From Agrobacterium tumefaciens (GTDB lineage: Bacteria > Pseudomonadota > Alphaproteobacteria > Rhizobiales > Rhizobiaceae), in assembly GCF_013318015.2 (NCBI RefSeq), contig NZ_CP115843.1, positions 124,001 through 188,000 on the forward strand: a stretch of 64,000 nt of DNA, given 5' to 3'. The stretch's first letter is position 1. Every line of letters begins with the position of its first letter. Made by a program: the position numbers and the translations under genes. Below the pieces are notes generated by a model. It was not told the DNA's origin, ran no database searches, and worked only from the letters and a program-made list of their open reading frames with translations. Below, piece after piece: positions 48,141 to 63,949 of this stretch.

Positions 48141-49136
48141 CTAGAGGGTTTTCCCGGTCTTACGTCCGATCAAGCCAATGATGCCATCTCTGAACATCAA
48201 CACACATACGACAAATACGACACCCTGAATTACGGTCACCCAAGCGCCGAATGGGGCGAGGTAGTTTGCCATTGCGGTGATTATAAATGATCCAACAATT
48301 GGCCCAAAGATCGTCCCCATGCCACCAACCAGTGTCATCAGTACGACTTCACCTGACATGGACCAGTGTACGTCTGTTAGGGACGCCAGTTGGAACACGA
48401 TGGCTTTGGTAGCGCCTGCAACACCAGTTAACGTTGCCGAGAGCACAAACACCGCGAGTTTGTACCTGTTGATGTCATAACCCAGCGAGGTAGCGCGCAC
48501 CTCGTTTTCCCGAATTGCCTTGAGAGCTTGTCCGAAAGGCGAGTGGATAATTCTGTAGATCAGTGCGAGCGTCGACAAAAAGATCAGCGCTACGACAACG
48601 TAGAGCGTGCTGTCACTCGCGAGATCGATAAAGCCGAACATCTTGCCTCGTGGTACAGCTTGGATTCCGTCTTCGCCGCCAGTGAAGGGGGCCTGTACAC
48701 ACACAAAATACACAAGTTGCGCCAATGCGAGGGTGATCATGGCGAAGTAGATACCTTGCCGTCTGATCGCCAGGGATCCTGCTACGAAGCCTAATATCGC
48801 TGAAACAATAGCACCGAAGAGAATAGCGAGCTCCGGCGGGAAGCCCCATATCTTGGCAGCATGCGCGCAAGCGTAGCTGGCCATGCCGAAATAAGCAGCG
48901 TGACCGAAAGAGAGTAGGCCTCCGTACCCAAGGAGGAGATTGAAAGCCAACGCATAGATGGAGAAACACAGCACCTTCATGACGAAGACCGGGTACAAAA
49001 ACATCGGCATGACTATCAACGCTAACGTGATGAGCCCGAAGACGATCAGGTGATCTTTGGCGCTACGATCATGTTCCGCGGGCAGGAGAGCACTTACGGT
49101 ATTTTGCTCGAATTCAGTTTGAACAGTTTGTTTCAT
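48141..49136 (-). CDS. livM: branched-chain-type ABC transporter permease LivM
   Basis: Inner-membrane permease of 331 residues with many helices (LIVFGLITLALIVMPMFLYP, LAFNLLLGYGGLLSFGHAAY, IYFAMITLALAQLVYFVCVQ). The cytoplasmic loop that meets the ATPase is near FGQALKAIRENEVRATSLGY. Length and motif fit LivM. The ATG at 49136 is preferred over a TTG five codons upstream. It follows livH by 21 bp. The class also carries aromatic acids, ureas and other organic acids, so the ligand need not be an amino acid. Confidence 0.94.
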   Translation of the reverse strand: MKQTVQTEFEQNTVSALLPAEHDRSAKDHLIVFGLITLALIVMPMFLYPVFVMKVLCFSIYALAFNLLLGYGGLLSFGHAAYFGMASYACAHAAKIWGFPPELAILFGAIVSAILGFVAGSLAIRRQGIYFAMITLALAQLVYFVCVQAPFTGGEDGIQAVPRGKMFGFIDLASDSTLYVVVALIFLSTLALIYRIIHSPFGQALKAIRENEVRATSLGYDINRYKLAVFVLSATLTGVAGATKAIVFQLASLTDVHWSMSGEVVLMTLVGGMGTIFGPIVGSFIITAMANYLAPFGAWVTVIQGVVFVVCVLMFRDGIIGLIGRKTGKTL

Positions 49137-49157
49137 TGGAACACCTATCAATCCATA

Positions 49158-50045
49158 TCAGACCGCGCGACCGAAGAGGCCCGCTGGCTTAATGAGCAAG
49201 ACAATCATCATCACGACGAAAATGACCGTAGAGGATGCCTCGGGGTAGAAAACCTTCGTTAGTCCCTCAAGGAGCCCAAGTGAAAAGCCTGTAATGACCG
49301 AACCTAGGATTGATCCCATTCCCCCAATTACCACCACGGCAAACACGACGATGATAAGATCAGCGCCCATATTTGGATTGACGGAGTAGAGCGGGGCTGC
49401 AAGCACGCCCGCAAATGCTGCAAGCGCTACACCAAACCCATATGTTATTGTCAGGAGAAGCGGGACATTCACTCCGAAGGCTTGGACAAGCGATGGGTTC
49501 TCTGTTGCTGCTCTCAGATAGGATCCGAGCTTCGTTTTCTCGATCACGAGCCAGGTTGCGATACATACCACCAGTGATACGACGATGACCCAACCTCTAT
49601 AGATTGGAAGGTACATGAACGGCAGGCGGTATCCGCCAGCAAGTTCAGGTGGAACCGCGTAAGGTATACCCGATACGCCATACTCGTTGCGAAACAGTCC
49701 CTGAATTATGAGAGAGATCCCAAACGTCAAAAGCAGACCGTACAAGTGATCGAGGTGATACAATCTGGAAATGAACAGCCGTTCGAACAGCACGCCGGTG
49801 GCACCAACAATGATCGGTGCCAGAAGGAGAGCCCACCAATATCCCAAGCCCAGGTAATTGAGCAGCATCCATGCGATGAAAGCGCCCATCATGTATTGGG
49901 CACCGTGGGTAAAATTGATGATGTTCAGCAATCCAAAAATAATCGCCAAGCCAAGTGAGAGAAGCGCGTAAAATGATCCGTTGATCAACCCTATCAAGAG
50001 CTGCCCGAACAACGCGTTCGCAGATATGTCGAAAAATGCGGTCAT
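49158..50045 (-). CDS. livH: branched-chain-type ABC transporter permease LivH
   Basis: Inner-membrane permease of 295 residues: LINGSFYALLSLGLAIIFGL, NIINFTHGAQYMMGAFIAWM, and the docking loop near TKLGSYLRAATENPSLVQAF. These match LivH over full length. The ATG at 50045 starts 1 bp after the livF stop (50047-50049), so translation is coupled. A GTG three codons upstream is also open. Confidence 0.94.
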   Translation of the reverse strand: MTAFFDISANALFGQLLIGLINGSFYALLSLGLAIIFGLLNIINFTHGAQYMMGAFIAWMLLNYLGLGYWWALLLAPIIVGATGVLFERLFISRLYHLDHLYGLLLTFGISLIIQGLFRNEYGVSGIPYAVPPELAGGYRLPFMYLPIYRGWVIVVSLVVCIATWLVIEKTKLGSYLRAATENPSLVQAFGVNVPLLLTITYGFGVALAAFAGVLAAPLYSVNPNMGADLIIVVFAVVVIGGMGSILGSVITGFSLGLLEGLTKVFYPEASSTVIFVVMMIVLLIKPAGLFGRAV

Positions 50046-50046
50046 G

Positions 50047-50793
50047 TCAGACACCTAGATACGAGTGCAGTTTCTGGATGTTGTTATCCAGTTCAACGTT
50101 GAGGATCATGTCGATGACTTTGCCGTGGTCGACGATGAAGTGCCGATCAGCAACAGATTGTGCAAACCGGAAATTCTGCTCCACGAGTATTATCGTGTAA
50201 CCTTCGAGCTTTAGCTTTTGTAGCATCGCGCCGATCTGTTGAACGATAACGGGAGCCAGCCCCTCGGTTGGCTCATCGAGCACGATCACTTTTGCGCCGG
50301 TTCGAAGTACACGTGCGATGGCAAGCATCTGTTGCTCGCCGCCCGACAACTTCGTGCCCTGGCTTTTTGATCTCTCTTTGAGGTTGGGAAACAACTCGTA
50401 GATTTGCTCAATCGACATCCCGCCAGCATTGATGCGCGGCGGAAGCATCAAGTTCTCCAGCACCGATAAGCTAGCGAAAATACCGCGCTCCTCGGGGACA
50501 TATGCCAAACCCATCCTGGCTATATGCCGAGAAGGCGCTTGGACAATCTGCTTGCCGTGAAACTCAATTGAGCCGCGACGCTTGGAGAGAATGCCCATGA
50601 TCGCTCGGAGCGTGGTTGTTTTTCCTGCTCCGTTTCGTCCCAGCAGTGTGACGACTTCTCCGCGTTTGACGTCAAAGGAAATACCATGCAAAACATGGCT
50701 CTCTCCATACCACGCTTCCAGCGCATCGACTTTCAAGCACACTTCGTCAGACTGCGCTTTAGCATTTCTGGAATGCTGCAATAACTCAGACAT
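50047..50793 (-). CDS. livF: branched-chain-type ABC transporter ATPase LivF
   Basis: ATPase of 248 residues. Walker A is LLGRNGAGKTTTLRAI, the signature LSGGEQQMLAIARVL, Walker B KVIVLDEPTEGLAP, switch His replaced by the usual Gln/Glu-rich ILVEQN. Short form without a C-terminal domain, as in LivF. The ATG at 50793 overlaps the livG stop by 8 bp. Confidence 0.94.
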   Translation of the reverse strand: MSELLQHSRNAKAQSDEVCLKVDALEAWYGESHVLHGISFDVKRGEVVTLLGRNGAGKTTTLRAIMGILSKRRGSIEFHGKQIVQAPSRHIARMGLAYVPEERGIFASLSVLENLMLPPRINAGGMSIEQIYELFPNLKERSKSQGTKLSGGEQQMLAIARVLRTGAKVIVLDEPTEGLAPVIVQQIGAMLQKLKLEGYTIILVEQNFRFAQSVADRHFIVDHGKVIDMILNVELDNNIQKLHSYLGV

Positions 50794-51553
50794 GACCGGC
50801 TCCAATGTAAGCTTCAATCACCTGCGGATCCTGGGAAACGCTTTTGTAGTCGCCTTCGGCCAAGACCTGACCACGTGCCAGCACGGTTATGCGATCTGAC
50901 AGGTTCGCCACTACAGACAGATTGTGTTCGACCATAAGGATGGTTCGGTTCTTCGAGACTTGTTTGATGAGCGCAGCTGTGCGGTCAACGTCCTCGTGGC
51001 TCATTCCAGCCATAGGTTCATCAAGCAGCATCATTTCGGGATCCAGAGCGAGCGTTGTTGCGATCTCAAGCGCTCTCTTGCGGCCGTAGGAAAGCTCTTT
51101 TGCTTCTTTGTGAGCGAAGGCGGACAAACCAACGGATGCGACCAATTGATCTGCCTCATCGTTGAGGACGGCAAGAGTTTTATCCGACCGCCAAAAGTCA
51201 AAGGAGTCACCGCGTACGCGTCGCTGGAGGGCTACTCTGACATTCTCCCTCGCGGTCAAATTAGGGAATACTGCCGATATTTGGAACGACCTTACTAGGC
51301 CGAGCCGCGCGACACGCGAGGGATTGAGCTTCGTAATGTCGTGACCGTTGTATGAAATCCTGCCACTGGTCGGCGTCAGGAATTTTGTAAGCATGTTAAA
51401 ACAGGTTGTCTTTCCCGCTCCGTTGGGACCGATGAGTGCGTGTATGGTCCCGCGGCGGATGCTGAGATTTACGCCGTTCACGGCGTGAAACCCGCGAAAT
51501 TGCATGCCAAGGTTCTCAGCGACCAGGATATGATCCGTGCCAGATGTCGTCAT
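50786..51553 (-). CDS. livG: branched-chain-type ABC transporter ATPase LivG
   Basis: ATPase of 255 residues. Walker A is LIGPNGAGKTTCFNML, the signature LSYGRKRALEIATTLA (the LSYG form usual in LivG), Walker B MMLLDEPMAGMSHED, switch His in LMVEHNLSVVANLSD. The ATG at 51553 is taken over an earlier one five codons upstream. It is 73 bp after the binding-protein gene, with a hairpin in that gap. Confidence 0.94.
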   Translation of the reverse strand: MTTSGTDHILVAENLGMQFRGFHAVNGVNLSIRRGTIHALIGPNGAGKTTCFNMLTKFLTPTSGRISYNGHDITKLNPSRVARLGLVRSFQISAVFPNLTARENVRVALQRRVRGDSFDFWRSDKTLAVLNDEADQLVASVGLSAFAHKEAKELSYGRKRALEIATTLALDPEMMLLDEPMAGMSHEDVDRTAALIKQVSKNRTILMVEHNLSVVANLSDRITVLARGQVLAEGDYKSVSQDPQVIEAYIGAGHV

Positions 51554-51587
51554 GATTGATGCTCGCAAAAAAGAAAGAGCTCAAGCG

Positions 51588-51608
51588 CCGCCAACTGATC
51601 GCTGGCGG
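51588..51608 (-). other. hairpin between the binding-protein gene and livG
   Basis: CCGCCA-N9-TGGCGG, 6-bp stem, followed on the minus strand by a T-rich run about 10 bp later (CTCTTTCTTTTTT). Its position suits partial termination that lets more binding protein be made than transporter. Confidence 0.5.
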
Positions 51609-51626
51609 GGCTAATGAGGAGATCAA

Positions 51627-52823
51627 TTACCCGTTGATCTTGCAGCTTTCCAACCGTGGGGGCGCTGCGTCTTCGGCATTCACCTTCGCGATGAAGGAGT
51701 AGTAGTCCCAAGGTGCTTTCGACTCGTCAGGAGTTTTCACGCGGAAGAGATACAGATCGCGCATTACCCAACCGTCATCTCGAATTTTGGCGTCGTGAGT
51801 CATCATGTCGTTGACAGGCAACTCACGCATCGCCTTGGCGACTGCGCTGGACTCTGTCGTGCCCGCCTTCTCAACGCCCTTGATGTAATGACGCACGGCA
51901 CTATAGACGCCCGCCTGAGCCATCGTTGGCATACGGCCATTCATTTTCTCGCCAAATCGCTTGGACCAAGCTTTGGTCTCGTCGTCGAGGTCGTGGTAGA
52001 ATGCAGAGGTCAATGTGAGGTTCTGCGCGATTGGCAGACCAATGCTGTGTACGTCCGAGAGGAACGTCTGCATTGAGACAATCTTCTGTCCACCGTCTGC
52101 AATGCCGAACTCGGTGGATTGTTTGACGACGTTGATGAAGTCGGAACCGCCACTTACAAAGGCGACTACCTTCGCGCCAGAGCTTTGTGCCTGGAGCAAG
52201 TATGACGCAAAGTCGGTCGTACCGAGCGGATGCCAGACCGTCCCGACTACTTTTCCGCCACCTTTGGTGATAACGTCAGTAGCGTCTCGTACCATGGCAT
52301 GGCCGAAGGCGTAGTCCGCAGCTACGAAATACCAGGAATCGCCACCGTCTTTAAGAACAGCCGTCGCGGTGCTTCGAGCGGAAGATGCCGTATTGAAGGT
52401 GAACTGGAAGCTGGTCGGGGAGCACGATTTTCCGAGCAAATCCGAGCTGCTCGCACTAGAAAAAGCAACGATCTTATTCTTCTCGTTCGCGACCTGCTGT
52501 ACCGCCAAGGCGATGGAAGACACTGGGAGGTCGAAAATCGCAGTTACACCGTCGGCATCGTACCATTTCCGAGCGATGTTCGCCCCAATATCTGGTTTGC
52601 CCTGATGGTCGGCGACAAGAACTTCAATAGGCTGTCCCAGTACTTTACCGCCCGCGTCTTCTACAGCAAGCTCTGCGGCTACTACGGATCCAGGTCCAGC
52701 CAAATCGGCGTAAATGCCGCTTTGGTCATTCAGAATGCCGATTTTTACGGGGGTATCACTCTGTGCGAAAGCACAAGCAGCTGTCCCCAACAACGTCAAA
52801 ATAGTCAAAGCCGATTTAATCAC
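51627..52823 (-). CDS. ABC transporter substrate-binding protein (LivJ/K type)
   Basis: Periplasmic binding protein of 398 residues. The GTG at 52823 is fixed by GGAGGAGAAACCT just upstream. The signal peptide IKSALTILTLLGTAACAFAQ ends before SDTPVKIGIL. The mature part shows the type I fold (GILNDQSGIYADLAGPGSVV; later WYFVAADYAFGHAMVRDATD and GTVWHPLGTTDFASYLLQAQ). Members of this size bind branched-chain amino acids, amides, or aromatic and other organic acids. First gene of the importer operon, divergent from the IclR gene. Confidence 0.93.
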   Translation of the reverse strand: MIKSALTILTLLGTAACAFAQSDTPVKIGILNDQSGIYADLAGPGSVVAAELAVEDAGGKVLGQPIEVLVADHQGKPDIGANIARKWYDADGVTAIFDLPVSSIALAVQQVANEKNKIVAFSSASSSDLLGKSCSPTSFQFTFNTASSARSTATAVLKDGGDSWYFVAADYAFGHAMVRDATDVITKGGGKVVGTVWHPLGTTDFASYLLQAQSSGAKVVAFVSGGSDFINVVKQSTEFGIADGGQKIVSMQTFLSDVHSIGLPIAQNLTLTSAFYHDLDDETKAWSKRFGEKMNGRMPTMAQAGVYSAVRHYIKGVEKAGTTESSAVAKAMRELPVNDMMTHDAKIRDDGWVMRDLYLFRVKTPDESKAPWDYYSFIAKVNAEDAAPPRLESCKING

Positions 52824-53143
52824 AGGTTTCTCCTCCAGTACCTGATGACACGCCCCTACGGGCGCACTCCCCCCACTGTCGAACGCATTGGCGACCGACA
52901 TTGGCGATTTCTCTGAACTGTAATTTTCGCTCCAGCATCATCGGCCTCCCAGCCGTAAAACGATGCGGTTATGCGCAAAATACTCCCAAGATCGAAAGAA
53001 CAAGATTTTAAGTATCAAGTCAAGATATTATATATGAAACCTTATGGCTGTTTGCGATTATTCCAACTTTGGTGGCGGTGCAAATTTGTTTGGAAAGAGT
53101 TATAGGTCAACTCAGACTCGTCGGGGGGAAAACGGACTAGGCC
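52824..53143. promoter_or_regulatory. divergent region between the importer operon and iclR-type gene, with one ATCA-type element
   Basis: 320 bp of AT-rich sequence. At 53027-53038 the bases ATTATATATGAA match 10 of 12 positions of the element repeated three times at 56936-57018 (ATCATATGTGAA form). If the IclR protein binds that element, the importer and the catabolic genes would share control. No other gene or operator is recognised. Confidence 0.4.
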
Positions 53144-54067
53144 ATGGCAAGAGTAAAAATCGAGAAGGAAGTGGAAGATGAGCTTGAGGGAGGAAGTGCA
53201 GCGCCTGCTTATGCTGCACCTGCCTTGGAGAAGGGGCTCGATATCCTTGAGACTTTGTCGGCAAGCAACGTAGCATTATCTCAAATTGAGATTGCTGAGC
53301 GGATTGGCCGTAGTGTTAGCCAAATGTACCGTATGCTGACATGCCTAGTCTCGCGTAACTATGTTGCGAACGTCGGAGAATCATACTCAATAACGACGAA
53401 GTTGTTCGAGCTGGCTCACAACAATCCACCTACGAACCATCTCCTGTCAGAAGCCACACCAATCATGCAGGAATTGGCATCTGAGATCGAACAAGCCTGC
53501 CACCTAACGGTGTTCAGTGCAGGACGTCAGGTCGTCATCGCAAAGGTCGACAGCCCGAGCTGGGTTGGATTCAGTATTCGTGTAGGGGCACTCCTGGACT
53601 TACTCGTATCCGCATCAGGACGGGTGTTGCTGGCCTTTCAAGATCCAACCACACGAGATTTGCGGATTAAGGAAGCGCTGAGACACAGACCGCAGGACGC
53701 AGAGATCGAGATCGGTAAAATACTGGAAAGTATCCAGGATCGCGGGTTCGAGTCGATGGTAAGCATGCAAGTGAAAGGCCTTCACGCGATCAGTTTCCCA
53801 ATTCTGGATACTCGCAACCGAGCCATGGCTGCCCTGACCGTTCCTTATGCTGACCGCCTTGAGCAATCAGGAAGCAAATCCATCGCAGACGCAGAGGTAG
53901 CTTTAGGGCGTGCGGCCAAGACGTTGTCTGAACGAATGGGTTGGCGCGAAGGTGTTAGTAACGTTGAGATATTAGGGCTGGGCGAGGCGGGGGCTGATGA
54001 TACACCGCGCCGTCGGCGACGTGCAAAGTTGGGTAACGTCTCCGATACCGTTAGACAGCGGTCATAA
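53144..54067 (+). CDS. IclR-family transcriptional regulator
   Basis: Regulator of 307 residues. The winged HTH is near residues 28-85 (LEKGLDILETLSASNVALSQ, then IAERIGRSVSQMYRMLTCL). The effector domain runs from SEATPIMQELASEIEQACHL to the end of the fold near ADRLEQSGSKSIADAEVALG. It carries unusual ends: an acidic start (KEVEDELEGG) and a basic tail with TPRRRRRAK. IclR proteins of the PcaR/PobR type control aromatic and organic-acid degradation. It sits between the importer and the catabolic genes and is their most likely regulator. Confidence 0.92.
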   Translation: MARVKIEKEVEDELEGGSAAPAYAAPALEKGLDILETLSASNVALSQIEIAERIGRSVSQMYRMLTCLVSRNYVANVGESYSITTKLFELAHNNPPTNHLLSEATPIMQELASEIEQACHLTVFSAGRQVVIAKVDSPSWVGFSIRVGALLDLLVSASGRVLLAFQDPTTRDLRIKEALRHRPQDAEIEIGKILESIQDRGFESMVSMQVKGLHAISFPILDTRNRAMAALTVPYADRLEQSGSKSIADAEVALGRAAKTLSERMGWREGVSNVEILGLGEAGADDTPRRRRRAKLGNVSDTVRQRS

Positions 54068-54129
54068 CGGCGTGCGGTGGATGAAAAGCTATGGAGAGAG
54101 TATTTGCCCAGAGCGGTAAGCAACGTACG

Positions 54130-54522
54130 TCAAGGTGAGCCTCCGGCAAACCCGGCGCGGTTCATATTAAAGGTCGATGGTTGAACAGAAAACAAAACCT
54201 GATCGCCAGTGTATGGAATTTCCAGTGTAACCTTCATACCAGGTACGGACTGGCTTCGACCACGTTCAAGGCCGTACATAAAGCCCGATACCTTCACCTG
54301 AGCCTCCGACTGGTCTACAGCCGCATTGTGAACGTCCAACTCGGGTACGCTTATGACGAACTTATCAAAGATGTAGTTCACCAAATCTTCTATGGAGGCA
54401 TTCAATATGCGCCCCTCAGGAATCGTAGCGATTTCCGTGGTGACCAACTTACTTTGGGCTTCTCGAACCTGATATGAACTAACTTTGCAAAATAGGGGTT
54501 CTGGTTCGGTGTAACGCGCCAT
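54130..54522 (-). CDS. unrecognised protein of about 130 aa, possibly the N-terminal piece of a longer one
   Basis: The N-terminus ARYTEPEPLFCKVSSYQVRE and the middle EGRILNASIEDLVNYIFDKF look like a real, well-formed soluble protein with mixed helix and strand. The end is abrupt: PYTGDQVLFSVQPSTFNMNR is followed by AGFAGGSP and a stop. That pattern suggests a longer protein cut at a junction near 54130. It has no signal peptide or membrane segment. I do not recognise a function. It lies convergent to the iclR gene and has no link to the pathway genes. Confidence 0.55.
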   Translation of the reverse strand: MARYTEPEPLFCKVSSYQVREAQSKLVTTEIATIPEGRILNASIEDLVNYIFDKFVISVPELDVHNAAVDQSEAQVKVSGFMYGLERGRSQSVPGMKVTLEIPYTGDQVLFSVQPSTFNMNRAGFAGGSP

Positions 54523-54739
54523 GCCTGCCATTCCTCATCGAGATTTACGATTCAGTCACAGGGCCACCTCACTCGATTTGCAACAAGCTTGCAAGTTTAG
54601 GGCGAGTATATTGGAATGGAGTTTTGAAAAAAGGCTTTGCGAAGCGCACGACTGTAGGGTTTCGCTCGACCTGACAGATAGAAGGAGAATTCATAGATTT
54701 GTGTAGCGAAACTAGGATGCCCCGCTACACGAGATCTCG

Positions 54740-55495
54740 TTAGGCTGGCAAACCGCCGTCGATCATGAACGTTGCCGAAGTGACATATGAGGCCTCCTCA
54801 GAAGCCAGCCACAGCATCGGATTTGCAAGCTCTGCCGGTTCCGCCCATCTCTTGAGTGCGCAAGGTGGCACGAGATCATCAACTGCTTTCTCTCCCATCC
54901 TTTTGAGATGGAAAATGGTCCGAGTAAATCCGGGGCAAATTGAGTTCACGCGGATGTTGTGTTCGGCTTCTTCGAACGCGAGTGTTCGCGTCAAAGCAAG
55001 GACACCAGCCTTTGTGGCATCATACGCCCCCATACCTTTGCGGCCGTACATGGCATAAGTAGACGATACGTTGACAATGCTGCCGTTTTTGGCTTCGCGC
55101 ATATGTGGAATGACTGCACGGGACATCGACACAAAGCTGAGAAGATTGACGCGAACGATCTCGTCCCAAAGCTCCCAGGGTGCGTCCGCTACGGCTTCGT
55201 AGCGTCTGATTCCAACATTGTTCACGAGCACGGTTGTGGGCCCGAGTTTTTCCGTGACCAGCGCGACGGATCTTTCGGCCTCTGTCTCGACGCCGAGGTC
55301 TGCCCCAATTCCGATAATCTCTGCGCCGGGAACTTGAGTGCGAATATCTTCAGCTGCCTTCTCGGCTGCTTCAGCACTGATATCGACGAGCGCTACTTTT
55401 GCGCCTTCCGCACAAAAAATCTTTCCAGCAGCAGAGCCTATGCCGCCGCCACCGCCGGTGATGACAGCTACCTTGTTCTCTAATCGATTGCCCAT
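54740..55495 (-). CDS. short-chain dehydrogenase/reductase (SDR)
   Basis: Classical SDR of 251 residues. The cofactor turn is VITGGGGGIGSAAGKIFCAE; the Asp in VALVDIS favours NAD. LVNNVGIRRYE has Val where most have Ala. The catalytic Ser and Tyr-Lys are in IVNVSSTYAMYGRKGMGAYD and YDATK. The start at 55495 is fixed by GGAGG. It follows the CoA-transferase gene by 79 bp on the same strand. A role as 3-hydroxyacyl or cyclic-alcohol dehydrogenase is likely in this cluster; the substrate is unknown. Confidence 0.9.
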   Translation of the reverse strand: MGNRLENKVAVITGGGGGIGSAAGKIFCAEGAKVALVDISAEAAEKAAEDIRTQVPGAEIIGIGADLGVETEAERSVALVTEKLGPTTVLVNNVGIRRYEAVADAPWELWDEIVRVNLLSFVSMSRAVIPHMREAKNGSIVNVSSTYAMYGRKGMGAYDATKAGVLALTRTLAFEEAEHNIRVNSICPGFTRTIFHLKRMGEKAVDDLVPPCALKRWAEPAELANPMLWLASEEASYVTSATFMIDGGLPA

Positions 55496-55574
55496 TGTGT
55501 TCCTCCATGATTGAGCTGATGTTGAGAGCACCGCCAGGACTTTCCGCCTCCTGCGAGAAAGCCGACGTTGTCGG

Positions 55575-56777
55575 TTATGAAGCGCTAACAGCGGCTCCTG
55601 TTTCCTCGAAATCCCTTGCCTCAGCGATGCTGAAGCCAAGTTCTCCGAGAATGTCCTGAGTGTTCCACCCAAGAGGTTGGGCGAAGATCCCAGTCGACGG
55701 ATATTCGTCGTCGCAACGAATTGTCGAACGAATCACTGTGGTACTGCCTTCCTTGGGGTGAACCTCTTGCGAGAGAAGTCCGACTGCCTGGATGTGTGGA
55801 TCAGCCACGAGTGTCTCTGTCGTGTGGCAAGGCATGGCCGCAATGTCGGCATCCTGGAAGATCTGTAGCCATTGAGCTGTCGTTTTATCGGAGAGTGCAG
55901 CTCCGCGGACTTCAAACCACGCATCGACGTTCAACGCGCGAGCTGAGACGGTTGCGAATCTTTCATCATCAAGAAGCTGATCGCGGCCTACAGCTTTCAG
56001 GAAAGCCTTGACCTGCGGGTCGGTATTGATGGTCACCGATATCCATCCGTCTGCAGTTTTAAGCGGATGGTTGTTCGGGTTCAGAAGGCGACGATCTCCA
56101 ACTGGTCCCACTGGAGGATCAAACGTCGCCTGAGCCAAGTGCTCCTGGAGAACAAATGCCGCCATTGTTTCGAACATAGGTATCTCAATGGAAGATCCAC
56201 CGTTTCCAGCGTTTCGCTTGAGGACCGCAGCGAGAATTGCACCGGCAGCGATCTCGCCAACAATATGGTCGCAAACAACCAATGGCACATAGGATGGACT
56301 ACCGTCGCGTGCCTGGAAAAGTCCAGCAATCCCGGATGCGCCTTGGATAACGCTGTCGTATGTTGGCCTGCCAGAGTAGGGGCCATCCGTTCCATAGCCT
56401 GTGATGAGGCAATGTATCTTATTTGGATAGGTATCTCTTATTGAAGCCGCGTCTAGGCCCAGCCGTTGAAGCGCCTGTGGGCGCATGTTGGCAACGACCA
56501 CGTCGGACCACTCAATGAGCTTCTTTATAATCTTATCTGCGCCTGGCTTTTTAAGATTAAGGCCGATGTTACGCTTACCTCGGTTGAGATGAAGGTAAGT
56601 TCCCGAATGCTTCCCGGTGGGCGACATGCCTCCCAACCCGCGCATTAGATCGCCTTCGGGCGACTCGACCTTGATAACCTCGGCTCCATACTGCGCAAGA
56701 CGCCAGGTGCATGTTGGACCAACAACAACGCTCGTGAAATCGAGTATGCGCAGACCGTTCAAAAGGGAATTATTCAC
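55575..56777 (-). CDS. class III (CaiB/BaiF-type) CoA-transferase
   Basis: Enzyme of 400 residues that moves CoA from an acyl-CoA donor to a free acid. The start LLNGLRILDFTSVVVGPTCT, the loop ESPEGDLMRGLGG, NRGKRNIGLNLKKP and the probable catalytic Asp at residue 141 in GRPTYDSVIQGASG fit the family, as does the late LNPNNHPLKTADGWISVTIN. The GTG start at 56777 has GGAGG upstream. It would activate the imported acid. Divergent from the second SDR gene across a region with three operator-like repeats. Confidence 0.92.
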   Translation of the reverse strand: MNNSLLNGLRILDFTSVVVGPTCTWRLAQYGAEVIKVESPEGDLMRGLGGMSPTGKHSGTYLHLNRGKRNIGLNLKKPGADKIIKKLIEWSDVVVANMRPQALQRLGLDAASIRDTYPNKIHCLITGYGTDGPYSGRPTYDSVIQGASGIAGLFQARDGSPSYVPLVVCDHIVGEIAAGAILAAVLKRNAGNGGSSIEIPMFETMAAFVLQEHLAQATFDPPVGPVGDRRLLNPNNHPLKTADGWISVTINTDPQVKAFLKAVGRDQLLDDERFATVSARALNVDAWFEVRGAALSDKTTAQWLQIFQDADIAAMPCHTTETLVADPHIQAVGLLSQEVHPKEGSTTVIRSTIRCDDEYPSTGIFAQPLGWNTQDILGELGFSIAEARDFEETGAAVSAS

Positions 56778-56935
56778 TTGTAACCTCCGCCCGGGCGATG
56801 TCGGGCAACGCGCTCCAATCGCCACCTGAAGTACAGGCGTCGATGTCACCGCTTAATTTGTGATCCTCCGGAGCCGCTCTTTGACCGCTCCCACGTTGAT
56901 GTTCTCCTCGTCAACGTCCTCGGATACTGTTTAAT

Positions 56936-57018
56936 ATCATATTTGATGTCAAGCAATCAGATGTGAAATTTAATTTGCATCTAGATTCCGTAGGTGAACT
57001 ATTGACATCATATGTGAA
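56936..57018. promoter_or_regulatory. three copies of a 12-bp element in the divergent catabolic promoter
   Basis: ATCATATTTGAT (56936-56947), ATCAGATGTGAA (56956-56967) and ATCATATGTGAA (57007-57018) fit one consensus, ATCAkATkTGAw. Starts are 20 and 51 bp apart, close to two and five helical turns. Two TTGACA hexamers, one on each strand (56947-56952 minus, 57002-57007 plus), point outward and overlap or touch the elements. This fits control of both the CoA-transferase/SDR and SDR/VOC/thiolase transcripts by one regulator, probably the IclR protein. Confidence 0.65.
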
Positions 57019-57057
57019 ATGATAATGATCGCTGCGAGGCGAGGAATGGAGGACTAC

Positions 57058-57819
57058 ATGTTGATGAGAGACAAGGTTTGCGCGATCACAGGCGCAGCAT
57101 CTCCTCATGGAATTGGGCGCGCGACTGCTCAACTGGTTGCACAAAATGGAGGAAAGCTGGTCATCCTAGATGTCAGCGACAGCATTCATAAAGCTTGTGC
57201 TGATCTCCAGAAGGAATTCCCGAATTCCGAAATCGTTGCTGTACAGACGGACATCTCGTCCCGAAGCGACTGTAAGCTTGCAATTGAAGTTGTTCTTGAG
57301 AGATTTGGGCGAGTCGACGCACTCATTCACTGTGCTGGCGTCATGCGCGCCGCAAAATTCGAAGAGATATCCGAACAGGATTTGACAGATGTGCTGTCGG
57401 TGAACTTGGCAGGGACATTTAATATCGTCGGTGCGTTTTCACCGTCGATGATCGCTCAGGGTAGCGGTTCTATTGTCAATGTATCATCGGTCGCGGCACA
57501 GCGGGGAGGCGGGCTTTTCGGGGGATCACATTACGCGGCCTCTAAAGGCGGTGTCTTGAGCTTCACTCGGACGCTTGCAAGGGAGTTTGGTGCGTCTGGT
57601 GTACGCGTCAACGCAGTTTGCCCCTCCCTAATCGAGACTGACTTCGTCGCGTCAGCCATCACACCTGAACGACTTCGCGAGCTTTCAACGGCAATTCCAT
57701 TGGGACGTCCTGGGCGTCCTTCCGAAGTGGCGGGAGCATGCATGTTCCTTGCCTCTGATTTGTCGACGTACATCACCGGGGCAACCATCGATGTGAACGG
57801 TGGCATTCACATCCACTGA
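57058..57819 (+). CDS. short-chain dehydrogenase/reductase (SDR)
   Basis: Classical SDR of 253 residues. The cofactor turn is lengthened: AITGAASPHGIGRATAQLVA. HCAGVM replaces NNAG, the Ser region is SIVNVSSVAAQRGGG, and HYAASK holds the catalytic Tyr and Lys. The end is GATIDVNGGIHIH. The start at 57058 is fixed by GGAGG 7 bases upstream. First gene of the rightward catabolic transcript. With the other SDR it may form a pair acting at different steps, or a heteromer; both are guesses. Confidence 0.9.
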   Translation: MLMRDKVCAITGAASPHGIGRATAQLVAQNGGKLVILDVSDSIHKACADLQKEFPNSEIVAVQTDISSRSDCKLAIEVVLERFGRVDALIHCAGVMRAAKFEEISEQDLTDVLSVNLAGTFNIVGAFSPSMIAQGSGSIVNVSSVAAQRGGGLFGGSHYAASKGGVLSFTRTLAREFGASGVRVNAVCPSLIETDFVASAITPERLRELSTAIPLGRPGRPSEVAGACMFLASDLSTYITGATIDVNGGIHIH

Positions 57820-57870
57820 TTACCAAAGCCAAAGCACGAGAAGTGCGCAAGCCTATATATGGAGGAAACC

Positions 57871-58299
57871 ATGGCAACTCATTTTCACCACGTAAACTTC
57901 ACCGCGAAAGATGTTTCGGATCTCGAAAACTTCTACAAAGACGTTCTAGAGCTGCAGCAGACATATTACGGCGGTCACGACGCTGACGACCAGATTAAGG
58001 ACCGCGGATATGGTGGTCACGTGACCTTCCTCACCGACGGTTCCACTGAAATGCACCTGGCCACGCGTGACCTCAACGTTGCTTTCAAGACCGGCAAGGG
58101 TGTGAACCCACTTGACCGTGGACATATTGCATTCCGTACAGACGACATTGAAGGCATTAAGGCGCGCTTGACCGAGCGCGGCATTCCTTATGCTGACTAT
58201 GGCCAGTGGGCTATCAAGGGATGGCAGCAGATTTTTTTCCAGGATCCTGAAGGCAACATCGTGGAAGTCCACGAAGTTGAAGGCGGCGAGGCTGCCTAA
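57871..58299 (+). CDS. small VOC-fold (glyoxalase-like) protein
   Basis: Single VOC protein of 142 residues: THFHHVNFTAKDVSDLENFY, GGHVTFLTDGSTEMHLATRD, RGHIAFRTDDIEGIKARLTE and FFQDPEGNIVEVHEVEGG. His (HHVNF), His (GHIAF) and Glu (IVEVH) provide the metal site. The family covers methylmalonyl-CoA epimerase, lactoylglutathione lyase and dioxygenases. Its start at 57871 has GGAGGAAACC upstream. In a CoA pathway an epimerase of 2-methyl- or 3-oxo-acyl-CoA is one option. Confidence 0.85.
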   Translation: MATHFHHVNFTAKDVSDLENFYKDVLELQQTYYGGHDADDQIKDRGYGGHVTFLTDGSTEMHLATRDLNVAFKTGKGVNPLDRGHIAFRTDDIEGIKARLTERGIPYADYGQWAIKGWQQIFFQDPEGNIVEVHEVEGGEAA

Positions 58300-58309
58300 G
58301 GCCGAACTT

Positions 58310-58336
58310 GAGGGGGTGGCGTAAAGGCACCCCCTC
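58310..58336 (+). other. GC-rich hairpin between the VOC and thiolase genes
   Basis: GAGGGGGTG / CACCCCCTC, a perfect 9-bp stem with a 9-base loop, 11 bp after the VOC stop. No T-run. It may set the VOC gene apart by mRNA processing, or reduce read-through to the thiolase. Confidence 0.6.
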
Positions 58337-58404
58337 TCGACCCGAGAAACCAAATCTCGATGTGGTTCCGACCAATCTCAGGTCTTTCGGAGGAGAAAGC
58401 CCGC

Positions 58405-59610
58405 ATGAACGACGCATATATTTGCGATTATGTTCGTACCCCCATTGGACGATACGCTGGAGGCCTTAAAGACGTCAGAGCTGACGACTTAGCCGCTCAC
58501 GTCCTGCGAAACTTGGTAGAGCGAAATACAAGTGTCGACTGGGAAGCTGTAACTGATACCTATTTTGGCTGTGCCAATCAGGCTGGTGAAGACAACCGAA
58601 ACGTTGCGCGAATGGCGCTTCTGTTGGCTGGACTTCCGGTCTCAATCCCGGGTTCAACGATAAATCGTCTTTGTGGATCCGGTCTCGACGCCGTGGGTAC
58701 CGCAGCGCGAGCGATCCGTTCCGGCGATGCCTCCCTCATGATCGCCGGTGGCGTGGAAAGCATGACGCGCGCGCCATTTGTCGTGCCGAAGGCAACGGAT
58801 GCTTTCTCACGGCAAGCGCAGATGGAAGACACCACAATTGGTTGGCGCTTTGTAAATCCGCAGATGAAAGCACTGCACGGCGTGGACTCGATGCCCGAGA
58901 CTGCAGAAAATGTAGCGGAATCTTATTCTATCAGCCGAGAAGATCAGGATTCCTTCGCTCTACGGTCGCAGCAGAAAACCAAAGCCGCCCAGGACAGTGG
59001 ATTCTTCTCCGGTGAGATTGCTCCTGTCACGGTGAGCACGAAACGTGGCCAAACGGTTGTTGCCCAGGACGAACACCCTCGGGCTGAAACAACTCTTGAT
59101 GGCTTGAGCAAACTGAAAGCACCTTTTCGTGCCTCCGGTGGCACAGTTACGGCTGGCAATGCATCTGGCGTGAACGACGGTGCAGCAGCGCTCATTTTGG
59201 CGTCAGAGGCAGCGGTAAAGCGCTTCGGCCTTACTCCTCGTGCCAGAGTCGTAAGCGTAGCGACCGCCGGGGTTGAACCCCGTCTGATGGGTGTCGGTCC
59301 GTTACCCGCAACACAGAAATTGTTGGCGATGAATGGGCTGAAAACCTCTGACATAGACATTTTCGAGTTGAATGAAGCCTTTGCGTCTCAAAGTCTCGCT
59401 GTCCTTCGAGGGTTGGGTCTTCCAGATGACGCAGACCACGTCAACCCCCATGGCGGAGCGATAGCCCTTGGGCATCCATTGGGCATGTCGGGTGCAAGAA
59501 TAGCTGGAACGGCTGTGAGAGCGCTGGAATTGACGAGTTCGAAGAGGGCCATCGCGACAATGTGCATTGGCGTTGGCCAAGGCATAGCAGCCCTGATTGA
59601 ACGGGTTTGA
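58405..59610 (+). CDS. pcaF: acetyl-CoA acyltransferase, 3-oxoadipyl-CoA thiolase type
   Basis: Thiolase of 401 residues, the usual PcaF/PaaJ length. The start [20 protein letters not shown] is characteristic of that group. The nucleophile Cys is residue 90 in [11 protein letters not shown], the His is in [16 protein letters not shown], and the second Cys is in MCIGVGQG. It splits 3-oxoadipyl-CoA, or a related 3-oxoacyl-CoA here, into acetyl-CoA and a shorter acyl-CoA. The start at 58405 is fixed by GGAGGAGAA. It could also serve the catechol pathway, whose 3-oxoadipate needs such an enzyme. Confidence 0.88.
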
Positions 59611-59619
59611 GGAACCGAG

Positions 59620-61686
59620 ATGAGTAAGCAGTTCGGCGTCGTTCAGACCAGAATTCAGGATAACATCGGTATAATCTCTGTAGAAGAAAGCGCTACAGGG
59701 CTTACTGAGGAACTGGCGACGAAGCTCGCTTGCGCACTTTTTGATGTCGACATCGAAGGTGTCGACGTAGTTTTGTTGTGTGGTGGCACCGCGTCCTTTT
59801 TGGTGAACCCAGATGATGCGCCAAGATGGCATGTTGTTGCAGGGCTCTGTACTCATATTGAACGCTCGTCGAGACCTGTGATTGCCTTCACAGAGGGCCG
59901 TGTAGAAGATGCGGGTTTGGCAATCGTTCTTGCCTGTGACCATCGAATTGCCACTGATAGTTCCTTCTTCGGTTTTCCTGCGTCGAAGTATGGTCTCTCC
60001 TTTGTTGGAGGAGCTGGCCGACGTTTGGTGCGAGCTGTGGGGAAGTCGGCCGCCATTGAATTACTTTGTACAGAAAACATCGATGCCAAATCTGCGAAAG
60101 ATATTGGGCTTGTCGATGAGGTGCTGGCCGATGTTGATGTGGTTGCGCACGTAATTTCCAACGCAACGAACTATCGGAAGATGCCAGAGACGTCGGCTAT
60201 TGTTGACGCGGATCCGGCCAAGGTAATTATCGCCTCAAAGGATGCTATCAAGCGGTCCAAGAAGCTTGGATCCGTGGCCTCGGCCATTGAGCTGATAGAC
60301 AAGATCGGGGTGGTCTCAGATGCTGATGCGGACGATCTAGAGAGGTCAAACTACATTATCTCTGCGTCATCGGACGATTTTAGGGCGCTTCAGCATCTTC
60401 AGTGGGCTGAAAAGCAGGCGTCTGTTTCCGGCCATCCGTCGACTGCGCACCATCCGATCAAAACGGTTGCTGTTATTGGTGCCGGTACTATGGGATCGGC
60501 GATAGCCGTAGCCGTTTCAGCAGTTGGCCTTCCCGTCACGTTGATCGAACAGACAGAAGAAGCCGCTCGCGCTGGTATCGAGCGCGTCCGCGGCATCTAC
60601 GGCAAACAGGTGGAGACCGGGCGATTATCGCAATCACAGTCCGAGACCGCTCTGATAGGTGTTTCTGCGACGCATGACTGGGAAGTTCTCAGCGATGTCG
60701 ACTTGATAATCGAAGCGGCGTTCGAGGATATGGATGTGAAACGATCCATATTTGAGCGACTGGATTCCCTTGCAAAGAAAGACGCGGTACTGGCGACGAA
60801 TACCTCCTATCTCGACATAAACGAGATAGGAAAATTCACGAAACGGCCCGAAAGCGTTCTTGGTCTCCATTTCTTTTCACCTGCGCACATTATGCGCCTG
60901 TTGGAGGTCGTCAAAACCGAGGCGACGAATGAAAGCACACTGGCCGTAGGTGTAGAATTCGGGCGACGGATTGGGAAACTTCCCATCGTCGCTGGTGTGT
61001 GTGACGGCTTTATAGGAAATCGGATCTTCTCGATTTATCGTAGGCACGCGGAGTACCTTCTTGAGGACGGTGCCAGTCCAAAACAGATTGATGACGCTGC
61101 CCAGGATTTCGGGTTTGCTATGGGACCATTCGCGGTCGCGGACATGTCTGGACTGGATATCGCTTGGGCAATGCGGAAACGACGGGCAAAGACGAGAAAC
61201 CCTTTGGAACGTTATGTCTCAATTCCGGATCGCCTTTGTGAAGCAGGGCGCATTGGGCGGAAAGTTGGGAAGGGGTGGTACGACTACCAGGATGGGCGCG
61301 CCGCTCCATCTCCTGAAGTCCAGAACATGGTTGAGCTTGGACGATTGAGCCAGGGTGTCATGGAACGAGATTTCACTCCGTCAGATATCCAACGAAGGCT
61401 GCTGGCAGTGATGGCAAACGAAGGTGCGAAAGTGCTTGAAGAAGGGATCAGCTCGCGGCCGTCTGACATCGATCTCGTTTTTGTAAATGGTTATGGATTT
61501 CCACGTCTGAAGGGTGGGCCAATGTATGCGGCGGACCAGATAGGTCTGAGTGCCATTTTGAACGAAGTTCTTAGCGCGGCCCATATCGGTGGCGCAGGAT
61601 CGGAACCATCACGCCTGCTCGTGGAACTAGTACGAACTAACCGTACGTTCGGCGAATGGCAGAAAGATAACACCACACAATTCTAG
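59620..61686 (+). CDS. enoyl-CoA hydratase-like / 3-hydroxyacyl-CoA dehydrogenase fusion with a degenerate hydratase half
   Basis: Protein of 688 residues laid out like FadB/FadJ. The dehydrogenase half is intact: [20 protein letters not shown] (near 285-304), catalytic His 417 in [10 protein letters not shown], Glu 429 in LLEVV, and [13 protein letters not shown]. The N-terminal hydratase half is not. The two catalytic Glu of the crotonase fold, found as GGGxE and PET, are Ala 101 (in [13 protein letters not shown]) and Ala 121 (in GFPASKYGL), and the oxyanion motif is worn ([11 protein letters not shown]). Hydration by this half is unlikely. It follows the thiolase by 9 bp and precedes the symporter. 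Confidence 0.9.
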
Positions 61687-61717
61687 AAATTTATGCTGCT
61701 TTTCGAGGAGGACGCAA

Positions 61718-63067
61718 ATGTCGGCTAATACCCAAAACGCGACGCTATCCCAAGTAGACGTCGAGAGTGAAACAGTGACGCCTATGGCGAAGAAAGCTGC
61801 ATTTAGCAGCGCGGTTGGATCAGCACTGGAGTGGCTCGATTTTACCGCTTATGGCGCTATCTCCGCGACTGTACTTCCTGCGCTATTTTTCCCCACAATG
61901 GAGCCAAGTGCTGCATTGTTGGCATCATTTGCTACGTTTGGCGTCGGATTTTTCGCTCGCCCGGCGGGTGGTGTTATCATGGGCATTTTGGGTGACCGGA
62001 TAGGACGCAAAAATATCCTGTTGTTCACATTCATTATCATGGGATTTGCTTCATTCTTGATCGGCTTGATGCCGACTTACGAGACAATTGGTATATGGGC
62101 ACCAATACTGATCGTGATGCTGAGGTTTATCCAAGGTTTTGCGCTTGGTGGTGAATCAACGGGCGCGCAACTGTTCACAATGGAGCACGCACCACAAAGC
62201 AAGCGTGGATTGTTTGGTGCGTTCACAAACATGGCAGCTCCTATTAGCCAGGTCTTGGCGAACGGGCTTCTGTTTGTAATTGCGGCGCTGATGACCACTG
62301 AGCAATTCACGAGCTACGGATGGAGAATTCCATTCTTGATGAGTGTACTGTTGGTGCTTTTGGGCGTGTACATCCGCTTCCGCGTTGAAGAAACACCCGC
62401 ATTCCAGCAACTCAAGCAACGTCAGGAGCTTGCTGAGGCTAAGGACATCGAGCTGGAGCCCAAACGCTCAGTGTTTAAAACGCACCCTAAAACGATTATC
62501 CGGCTGATCCTTTTTTGGGCAGCGCCAGCCAGCTGTTACTACGTGATTACGGTGTTCTCGATCAACTACCTCACCAAATCTGTTGGGGTCGCCAACCAGA
62601 CCGCTTTTGCATGCCTGATGGCAGCAAATGTGGTCGCAATTTTCACGACATGCATTGGTGGTGCCTTGAGCGACAAGTACGGCCGTAAGCCACCTCTGAT
62701 CGTCACAACTTTGTTGATGTTCGTAATTGCGTTCTTCTACTTCCCCATGATGAACACAGGCAGCACGGTTTTGATTTTCCTTGCCATGGGCGCTTTCGCT
62801 GGCTGCATCCAGGCGCAGAGCGGTATTTTGCCATCCTTCTTTGCTGAGCATTTTCCAACGTCGCAGCGGTATGCGGGATCCGCAATCGCGTATACCGGTG
62901 CAAACCTGCTCTTCGCTGGCCCGACGCCGTTTGTCGCTGCTTGGTTGATGCAATCGTTCGGTGGTCAAGTCTGGATCATTACAGCTATGAGCCTGATCTT
63001 GCTGTCCGTCTCATTCGTGGCGCTTCTGATAAGCCCAGAGACGAGAAACGTCGATATCACGAAGTAG
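61718..63067 (+). CDS. MFS transporter of the metabolite:H+ symporter (MHS) type
   Basis: Twelve-helix symporter of 449 residues. It starts with the MHS pattern SSAVGSALEWLDFTAYGAIS and has the loop-2/3 motif GILGDRIGRKNILLFTFIIM and the later GGALSDKYGRKPPLI. MHS proteins import organic acids such as alpha-ketoglutarate, shikimate, citrate or protocatechuate-type compounds. It offers a second uptake route for the pathway substrate besides the Liv-type importer, or imports a different intermediate. Confidence 0.92.
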   Translation: MSANTQNATLSQVDVESETVTPMAKKAAFSSAVGSALEWLDFTAYGAISATVLPALFFPTMEPSAALLASFATFGVGFFARPAGGVIMGILGDRIGRKNILLFTFIIMGFASFLIGLMPTYETIGIWAPILIVMLRFIQGFALGGESTGAQLFTMEHAPQSKRGLFGAFTNMAAPISQVLANGLLFVIAALMTTEQFTSYGWRIPFLMSVLLVLLGVYIRFRVEETPAFQQLKQRQELAEAKDIELEPKRSVFKTHPKTIIRLILFWAAPASCYYVITVFSINYLTKSVGVANQTAFACLMAANVVAIFTTCIGGALSDKYGRKPPLIVTTLLMFVIAFFYFPMMNTGSTVLIFLAMGAFAGCIQAQSGILPSFFAEHFPTSQRYAGSAIAYTGANLLFAGPTPFVAAWLMQSFGGQVWIITAMSLILLSVSFVALLISPETRNVDITK

Positions 63068-63118
63068 TCGAAGCATGGTGAATCCAAATCTGCGATAATG
63101 ACGTACAGGACTAACACA

Positions 63119-63949
63119 ATGACAAACGACCCTTCCGCTCCCGATGTAAATGAGATTGTTCGTAAGGAGACTTGCTCTGTTTCGGCGGTGCGTCGTATCG
63201 CTGCAATGTTGGACGTTGACCCCGACGAGTACAAAGAAGGGGGCGTGCTTCCCTTAGGATGGCATTTTATCTTGCTGGCGGGAGATACTCGGCGCTCCGA
63301 GGTCAGAGGCGATGGATTTCCGGGTCTGGGTGTTCCGATCCCAGACTTGGGCTTACCTCGTCTTTTGCTCGGCAGCAGGACTGTCGATGCACGTGAAGAT
63401 CTGATTATCGGAAGCAATTATGATCGCCACAGCTGGGTTGATAGCATTGTCCAGAAGGAGGGAAAAGCTGGCCCAATGGCAATTGTATCCATCGCCCACG
63501 ACTTGGTAGATCCTCTATCAGCTCGGGTCGTGTTGCACGAGGTTCAGACCTACATTTTGCTTGGGGCGGCACCTTACACGTCTCGTGAAACAGCTCAGTT
63601 AGAGTTGCCTGAAAATGTCACGACAATCGTTCCCGATGACATCCTTCTCTTTCAGTATTCTGCTTTAGGATTCAACTCTCATAAGATCCATATCGACCGC
63701 GCCTATGCGAGGGATGTTGAGGGTTATCCAGACATAGTGGTGAACGGGGGCTTATCTAGCCTATTGCTATTGGAGCATCTCCGAAACCGTGATGCGAGAC
63801 AAGCGGTCAAGATTGTAGCGAAGCATCACCTTCCGCTTTTCAGCGGAAAGCCGATCCACATTCACACTGAAGATGTCGAAGGTGGTTTGAAACTGAAAGC
63901 ACTTGACCATTCTGGAGCACTTTCTGTCGAAATCCACGTTGAGTTTTAG
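63119..63949 (+). CDS. hot-dog-fold acyl-CoA hydratase (3-methylfumaryl-CoA hydratase / HTD2-like)
   Basis: Protein of about 276 residues with an N-terminal FAS1-like dehydratase domain (PLGWHFILLAGDTRRSEVRG) and a C-terminal hot-dog with the catalytic region GFNSHKIHIDRAYARDVEGY. That is the FNxHxIHxDxxYA pattern of mesaconyl-C4-CoA (3-methylfumaryl-CoA) hydratase and HTD2 proteins. GIPDL-type contacts and the end KALDHSGALSVEIHVEF complete it. The start at 63119 has AGGA upstream; an ATG seven codons earlier also exists. It is the best hydratase candidate of the cluster given the dead domain in the fusion protein. Confidence 0.87.
   Translation: MTNDPSAPDVNEIVRKETCSVSAVRRIAAMLDVDPDEYKEGGVLPLGWHFILLAGDTRRSEVRGDGFPGLGVPIPDLGLPRLLLGSRTVDAREDLIIGSNYDRHSWVDSIVQKEGKAGPMAIVSIAHDLVDPLSARVVLHEVQTYILLGAAPYTSRETAQLELPENVTTIVPDDILLFQYSALGFNSHKIHIDRAYARDVEGYPDIVVNGGLSSLLLLEHLRNRDARQAVKIVAKHHLPLFSGKPIHIHTEDVEGGLKLKALDHSGALSVEIHVEF

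Follow-up and report, generated by a model that had tools for sequence, protein, structure and literature searches.

A putatively mobile catabolic module on an Agrobacterium tumefaciens plasmid whose hot-dog hydratase has probably replaced a decayed crotonase domain

Which acid is broken down by a CoA-dependent gene cluster on a plasmid of Agrobacterium tumefaciens, and which of its enzymes adds the water? The window that we analysed is a stretch of 64,000 nucleotides (positions 124,001 to 188,000 of contig NZ_CP115843.1), in which an earlier note, made from the letters of the DNA alone, had pointed to a catabolic cluster at 48141-63949 with its own importer, symporter and regulator. The claimed gene set is real: the open frames are there, and of the ten cluster proteins scanned against Pfam, nine matched (a Peripla_BP_6 solute-binding protein, IclR, two short-chain dehydrogenases/reductases (SDR), CoA_transf_3, Glyoxalase/VOC, thiolase, an ECH_1 + 3HCDH fusion and MFS). 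The four Liv importer genes take their identity from the annotation of a near-identical plasmid, pAt13-2099-1-2a, rather than from a scan with hidden Markov models. The explanation that we favor, with a probability of about 0.5, is a catabolic module that spreads horizontally and breaks down a small organic acid, whose activated form would be hydrated by a hot-dog enzyme and cleaved by a dehydrogenase and thiolase of C6 type.

The answer turns on the crotonase/3-hydroxyacyl-CoA dehydrogenase fusion (59620..61686, plus strand, 688 residues). New in this analysis is that its crotonase domain, the first ~240 residues, carries Ala101 and Ala121 at the positions of both catalytic glutamates, which intact relatives hold in GGGLE and LPE motifs. 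The dehydrogenase domain keeps its GLHFFSPA and DGFIGNRI motifs. Rat MFE1 has its catalytic residues at Glu103 and Glu123 (PMC10988713), likewise spaced by 20, a correspondence that we draw from motif and spacing; in the E123A variant described there, the hydratase site is inactive while dehydrogenase activity stays comparable, and dehydrogenation also survives removal of the crotonase domain. The hydratase domain of the window's fusion is probably dead, and the hydration step would therefore not be supplied by the fusion. The earlier statement that every step type is present therefore probably does not hold for the hydratase half of the fusion, and hydration would fall to the hot-dog hydratase of the cluster. 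The hot-dog protein is encoded by the last gene (63098..63949, plus strand), the only one of the ten scanned without a Pfam-A match. It matches the solved itaconyl-CoA hydratase 8khg with an E value of 1.7e-20, which is a family-level assignment, and many of its homologues carry the name 3-methylfumaryl-CoA hydratase.

The fate of the crotonase domain can be followed through homologues, using for each protein the best 120 matches (of 1411 for the hydratase, 7968 for the fusion and 3227 for the CoA-transferase, the last two scored among the 8000 candidates with the most words in common). Both glutamates are kept by 81 of the best 120 fusion homologues; in 15 at least one of the two is gone, and 24 are without a crotonase domain. 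The window's protein, 14 of the 15 degenerate homologues and all 24 domain-less ones form a clade of 39 with support of 0.979 and no intact fusion inside; among degenerate homologues, only P0137 (Glu-Asp) falls outside it. Within the clade, the domain-less P0212 and P0226 lie in the degenerate sub-clade, and the other 22 domain-less proteins are its sister group. Of the 15 altered and 24 domain-less homologues, 20 share a longest-contig size with a listed hydratase or CoA-transferase homologue, an indirect sign of linkage that none of the 81 intact ones shows (Fisher value 2e-12, ignoring kinship and the best-120 selection). The contig size entered for one hydratase homologue (P0078) may be wrong, but it contributes to none of these matches. 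A second set consists of 80 named loci, the best 80 of at least 591 confirmed fusion-homologue loci, some of them short and with flanks up to 10 kb. Both glutamates are present in 79 of these and unreadable in the remaining one (L104), and neither the hot-dog hydratase nor the VOC gene, nor the complete gene set, occurs in any of the 80. Likewise, an intact fusion on a Roseomonas gilardii plasmid (55%) has no CoA-transferase, hot-dog hydratase or VOC gene within 14 kb.

On two Phaeobacter plasmids (L138, L139), a domain-less dehydrogenase adjoins the hydratase. It belongs to a lineage separate from the window's clade, which suggests a second domain loss. Compared with P0121, the window's protein is 88.8% identical in the crotonase domain and 95.3% in the dehydrogenase domain, and against eleven more distant relatives the figures are 24-31% and 59-67%; in two pairs of intact fusions, the domains differ less (84 vs 87%, 58 vs 65%). 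The steeper divergence of the crotonase domain fits relaxed constraint. From these comparisons we conclude that hydration has probably passed from the fusion's crotonase domain to the hot-dog enzyme.

CoA-transferase relatives of 59-73% identity are found on six plasmids beyond two near-identical ones, namely A. leguminum pTiCFBP4996 and plasmids of Cupriavidus P-10, Blastomonas RAC04, Phaeobacter G2, P. inhibens P88 and Methylobacterium aquaticum, and in all six a relative of the hot-dog hydratase adjoins the CoA-transferase. IclR, VOC and SDR2 join the pair in four (A. leguminum, Blastomonas and both Phaeobacter) and do not accompany it in Cupriavidus P-10 and Methylobacterium aquaticum. The pair also occurs with IclR, VOC and SDR2 in genomes G502 and G1068, the G502 IclR being truncated at the edge of the sequence examined. 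The comparison of gene neighborhoods that the earlier note proposed finds the core again on these four plasmids and in both genomes, and its recurrence in distant bacteria supports the note's view of one catabolic unit in which an imported acid is activated by CoA transfer. The core is absent around three more plasmid matches, those to a Roseomonas fusion, an A. cucumeris luciferase-like monooxygenase (LLM) and a Microvirga SDR.

In the window, the core consists of the IclR-family regulator (53144..54067, plus; nearest curated model PcaR/PcaU/PobR, under its cut-off), the VOC protein (57859..58299, plus), the hot-dog hydratase, the class III CoA-transferase (55575..56849, minus) and the FabG-like SDR2 (57019..57819, plus; under the cut-offs; in the near-identical plasmid its start is annotated ~40 bases further downstream). 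With the CoA-transferase called at E <= 1e-110, and in genome samples that overlap partly, the module is found, besides its own genome, in 1 of 384 genomes of the class, 0 of 100 relatives, 1 of 296 genomes of the family and 0 of the 24 genomes behind the named loci. This set of genes is apparently a rare mobile module with exchanged importers: MHS in A. leguminum, TRAP in Phaeobacter (the binding protein of G2 has 2hzk and the ketoacid-binding 7ug8 as its nearest matches), a TRAP binding protein in G1068, a tripartite-tricarboxylate binding protein in Cupriavidus P-10 and, in Methylobacterium aquaticum, two relatives (48-51%) of the window's own binding protein flanking the pair. The importers differ yet are all of carboxylate type, which favors a small organic acid as the substrate.

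A shared promoter region also speaks for a single unit. The gap between the CoA-transferase and SDR2 contains a divergent promoter/operator-like pair (56936..57018, both strands) formed by TTGACWTCAWATNTGWA in two inverted copies that both open with a -35-like TTGACA: the minus-strand copy TTGACATCAAATATGAT at 56936-56952 has one mismatch, and the plus-strand copy TTGACATCATATGTGAA at 57002-57018 has none. A. leguminum carries a matching pair. The pattern was built from the window and A. leguminum, so the chance values there are post hoc and the sole independent match is the single copy with one mismatch in G1068 (L143). In the rest of the nine further loci searched (L131, L132, L133, L136-L140 and L143), the motif appears with three mismatches in L132, L137 and L139 only; L131, L133, L136, L138 and L140 have no match with three mismatches or fewer. 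The liv promoter region has no full-strength motif, only a three-mismatch match at 53007-53023. That the two divergent transcripts share a predicted promoter/operator-like pair supports one catabolic unit.

The pathway that we propose would start with import by the LivFGHM/binding protein system and the MHS symporter. The CoA-transferase, which belongs to class III by family, falls far under every named equivalog cut-off and has Asp165 at what we take to be the family's catalytic position; it would move CoA, probably from succinyl-CoA, onto the acid. Succinyl-CoA is the CoA donor of Ict in P. aeruginosa and C. necator (PMC12290011). The hot-dog enzyme would add water to the unsaturated acyl-CoA in place of the fusion's crotonase domain, after which the dehydrogenase domain and the PcaF-type thiolase (58360..59610, plus) may convert a 3-hydroxyadipyl-CoA-type intermediate to succinyl-CoA and acetyl-CoA. 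As such thiolysis would yield succinyl-CoA, the CoA donor would be regenerated. The thiolase has the Cys and His motifs of its family and clears the PcaF equivalog cut-off (672.5 vs 597 bits), and three other close PcaF-type thiolases in the genome are 61-68% identical to it. The best three named loci, Acidocella aromatica (L047), Xanthobacter (L048) and Acetobacter cerevisiae (L049), all lie beside PaaZ, with thiolases 70-74% and dehydrogenase parts 53-58% identical to those of the window; PaaZ or PaaE is present in 7 of the 80. In the phenylacetate pathway, a dehydrogenase/thiolase pair of this kind handles 3-hydroxyadipyl-CoA and 3-oxoadipyl-CoA. That the nearest thiolase/dehydrogenase pairs among the 80 loci sit in phenylacetate (paa) clusters points to 3-hydroxyadipyl-CoA-type chemistry, and the entry compound is most likely an unsaturated or hydroxylated acid yielding a C6 dicarboxylyl-CoA. 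SDR2 and the VOC protein might act upstream or fix stereochemistry; an epimerising role for the latter is hypothetical. Residues H10/H11, E64, H66, H89 and E136 of the VOC protein are invariant across six aligned sequences (window included, two identical), and they are compatible with a metal site.

We would go a step further, tentatively and at somewhat less than even odds: in what would be an undescribed route of acid degradation, a lower pathway derived from that of phenylacetate may repeatedly have exchanged its crotonase step for the hot-dog hydratase. Crotonase domains that are intact, dead or deleted would then form a natural series, and the succinyl-CoA regenerated in each turn would activate the next substrate molecule.

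The same plasmid carries a second, paralogous catabolic cluster (G000:C3:~211000-239400; L131, L132), annotated in NZ_CP110833.1 at 192557-220955 (L148). Its redox genes encode two luciferase-type monooxygenases, flavin reductases, riboflavin functions, an aldehyde dehydrogenase, an acyl-CoA dehydrogenase and electron-transfer flavoprotein (ETF), and it also has pcaF, an intact fusion, a CoA-transferase and a hot-dog hydratase. Its regulator is 66% identical to a sigma-54-interacting Phaeobacter regulator, and LLM1 and one SDR are 87% and 91% identical to Phaeobacter plasmid genes.

Several observations weigh against our explanation. The second cluster keeps its intact fusion ~15 kb from the CoA-transferase (63%) and hydratase (41%), and Phaeobacter G2, besides its domain-less dehydrogenase, keeps an intact fusion ~16 kb from the hydratase; both of these fusions are of the more distant second-cluster type. 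No contig link appears for 19 of the 39 degenerate or domain-less homologues, and the Fisher comparison is not a test on independent samples because it uses equal longest-contig sizes, best-120 selections and related sequences. A PcaF-type thiolase or dehydrogenase is not linked to the module in A. leguminum, Blastomonas, G502, G1068, Cupriavidus P-10 or Methylobacterium, and these enzymes are therefore not obligatory neighbors; the neighborhoods in A. leguminum and Methylobacterium do include other thiolases and enoyl-CoA hydratases. A weak point is that SDR1, SDR2 and the VOC protein have no assigned step in the proposed pathway. Stereochemistry is a further difficulty. By our own Cahn-Ingold-Prelog derivation, itaconyl-CoA hydratase, whose product is (S)-citramalyl-CoA, adds water at the face that would give an (R)-3-hydroxyacyl-CoA, and the dehydrogenase domain of the fusion belongs to a 3S-specific family. 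The FabG-like SDR2 could oxidise an R product, or the window's hydratase may prefer the opposite face.

Other explanations place the same genes differently. They could be the lower pathway of an alicyclic or cyclic acid, with the SDRs and the VOC protein opening or isomerising a ring to give an adipate-like CoA ester and the second cluster running a parallel route by luciferase-type (Baeyer-Villiger-like) monooxygenases. The second cluster and the Phaeobacter clusters do put homologous CoA-transferase/hydratase pairs near LLMs (the 87% pair), flavin reductases and aldehyde dehydrogenase, and the nearest solved structure to LLM1 is the 3,6-diketocamphane monooxygenase 4uwm. But there is no monooxygenase among the ten scanned proteins of 48141-63949, ring chemistry by the SDRs or VOC protein is purely hypothetical, and the second cluster may serve another substrate. 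We consider a cyclic acid doubtful. It is rather less probable that the Liv importer, the CoA-transferase/SDR genes and the thiolase/dehydrogenase genes are independent neighboring units without a common pathway. Importers and lower enzymes come and go among relatives, and upstream of liv there is just the three-mismatch match already mentioned; against this stand the recurrent core, the common divergent promoter motif and the linkage of thiolase and dehydrogenase in both Phaeobacter plasmids.

The earlier note had named C5-C7 dicarboxylates among possible substrates. A C5 pathway for itaconate, mesaconate or methylsuccinate would make the CoA-transferase an Ict and the hydratase an Ich, with the remaining genes accessory. 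The hydratase is indeed closest to a solved itaconyl-CoA hydratase, the CoA-transferase is of class III as we take Ict to be, and a glyoxalase-family gene is also present in the P. aeruginosa itaconate cluster (PMC12290011). However, the fit is poor because the cluster has no citramalyl-CoA lyase (three HpcH/HpaI-type matches lie elsewhere in the genome, none within the cluster) and its thiolase is of the C6 (PcaF/PaaJ) kind. The CoA-transferase reaches 135 bits against a cut-off of 700 for the succinyl-CoA:mesaconate equivalog, and by general chemistry a tertiary alcohol such as citramalyl-CoA is unusable by a thiolase and 3-hydroxyacyl-CoA dehydrogenase. We rejected membership in the itaconate pathway for want of the lyase in the cluster and find a C5 route of any such type improbable, about as much so as unrelated units. 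Plain beta-oxidation was also rejected: the acyl-CoA dehydrogenase and CoA ligase that the earlier note did not see are not annotated within 17 kb on either side in the incomplete gene table of the near-identical plasmid, but its observation does not extend to the whole plasmid, where an acyl-CoA dehydrogenase and ETF lie beside the second cluster. A 3-oxoadipate branch with the two-subunit PcaIJ was set aside, PcaIJ not being among the cluster frames.

The locus contig (G000:C3) has 632,660 bases in a genome of 6.0 Mb and six contigs. The 15.8-kb stretch is 99.9% identical to plasmid pAt13-2099-1-2a of Agrobacterium sp. 13-2099-1-2 and 99.6% identical to plasmid pMK-2 of Rhizobium sp. NIBRBAC000502774. 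The branched-chain-amino-acid-type ABC importer is encoded on the minus strand by livM (48141-49151), livH (49158-50054), livF (50047-50817) and livG (50786-51568). The periplasmic binding protein (51627..52901, minus) has as its nearest solved structures 3i09 (E 4.9e-95) and 3n0w (E 3.6e-91). The MHS-type proton symporter (61718..63067, plus) has TIGR00883 as its best model, under the cut-off. SDR1 (54740..55672, minus) starts at ~55496 as annotated in the near-identical plasmid. A relative of SDR1 (81%) follows the CoA-transferase in A. leguminum; on pTiCFBP4996 (L135 17377-19628), the annotated homologue is shorter, and IS630-type transposase genes lie shortly downstream. Plasmid pMK-2 has ~1.2 kb extra between IclR and SDR1 (L141 8372-9622 vs window 54067-54740), with a 416-residue frame that has no Pfam match and was set aside as unrelated. 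Two other CoA-transferase III loci occur on the contig: an 845-residue frame at G000:C3:4571-6778 with two matches, presumably a DddD-like layout, and, at G000:C3:82926-83627, a partial match that covers 1-233 of the 366 profile positions and contains an internal TAA.

If our explanation is right, Agrobacterium plasmids predicted to be conjugative carry a catabolic route in which CoA-transferase activation is joined to 3-oxoadipyl-CoA chemistry, and the fusion is a tangible example of how one fold can assume a reaction from another that degenerates inside a fused enzyme. In line with the earlier note, searches of the open-access literature, which misses most subscription papers, turned up no named pathway with these genes in this order.

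Among known systems, the 3-hydroxypropionate bicycle combines the class III CoA-transferase Mct with mesaconyl-C4-CoA hydratase, of the 3-methylfumaryl-CoA hydratase family; the window's cluster would differ in being catabolic and having a thiolase, and intramolecular transfer is not expected. The phenylacetate lower pathway shares with the window a PcaF/PaaJ-type thiolase with 3HCDH. That pathway activates its substrate by a ligase, whereas the window would use a CoA-transferase, has no PaaZ or PaaE match, and has a crotonase with alanine at both catalytic positions. In the MFE1/FadB family, the crotonase-dehydrogenase fusion is common to both, but here both glutamates have become alanine and relatives have dropped the domain; the rat MFE1 E123A and BCDE variants (PMC10988713) are man-made counterparts. 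The itaconate/methylsuccinate cluster (ict-ich-ccl; PMC12290011) has a CoA-transferase and an Ich-type hot-dog hydratase like the window, and its P. aeruginosa version has a glyoxalase-family neighbor like the window's VOC gene. Unlike it, the window's cluster is without citramalyl-CoA lyase, MmgE/PrpD and acyl-CoA dehydrogenase and adds the dehydrogenase fusion, the PcaF-type thiolase and two SDRs. The same report places a second Ich homologue of C. necator beside a CoA-transferase and does not assign it to a pathway; the window's module resembles this pair and could help to name others like it. Judged by gene content, the module is apparently a cross between the itaconate route and the lower half of the phenylacetate pathway, and a member of neither.

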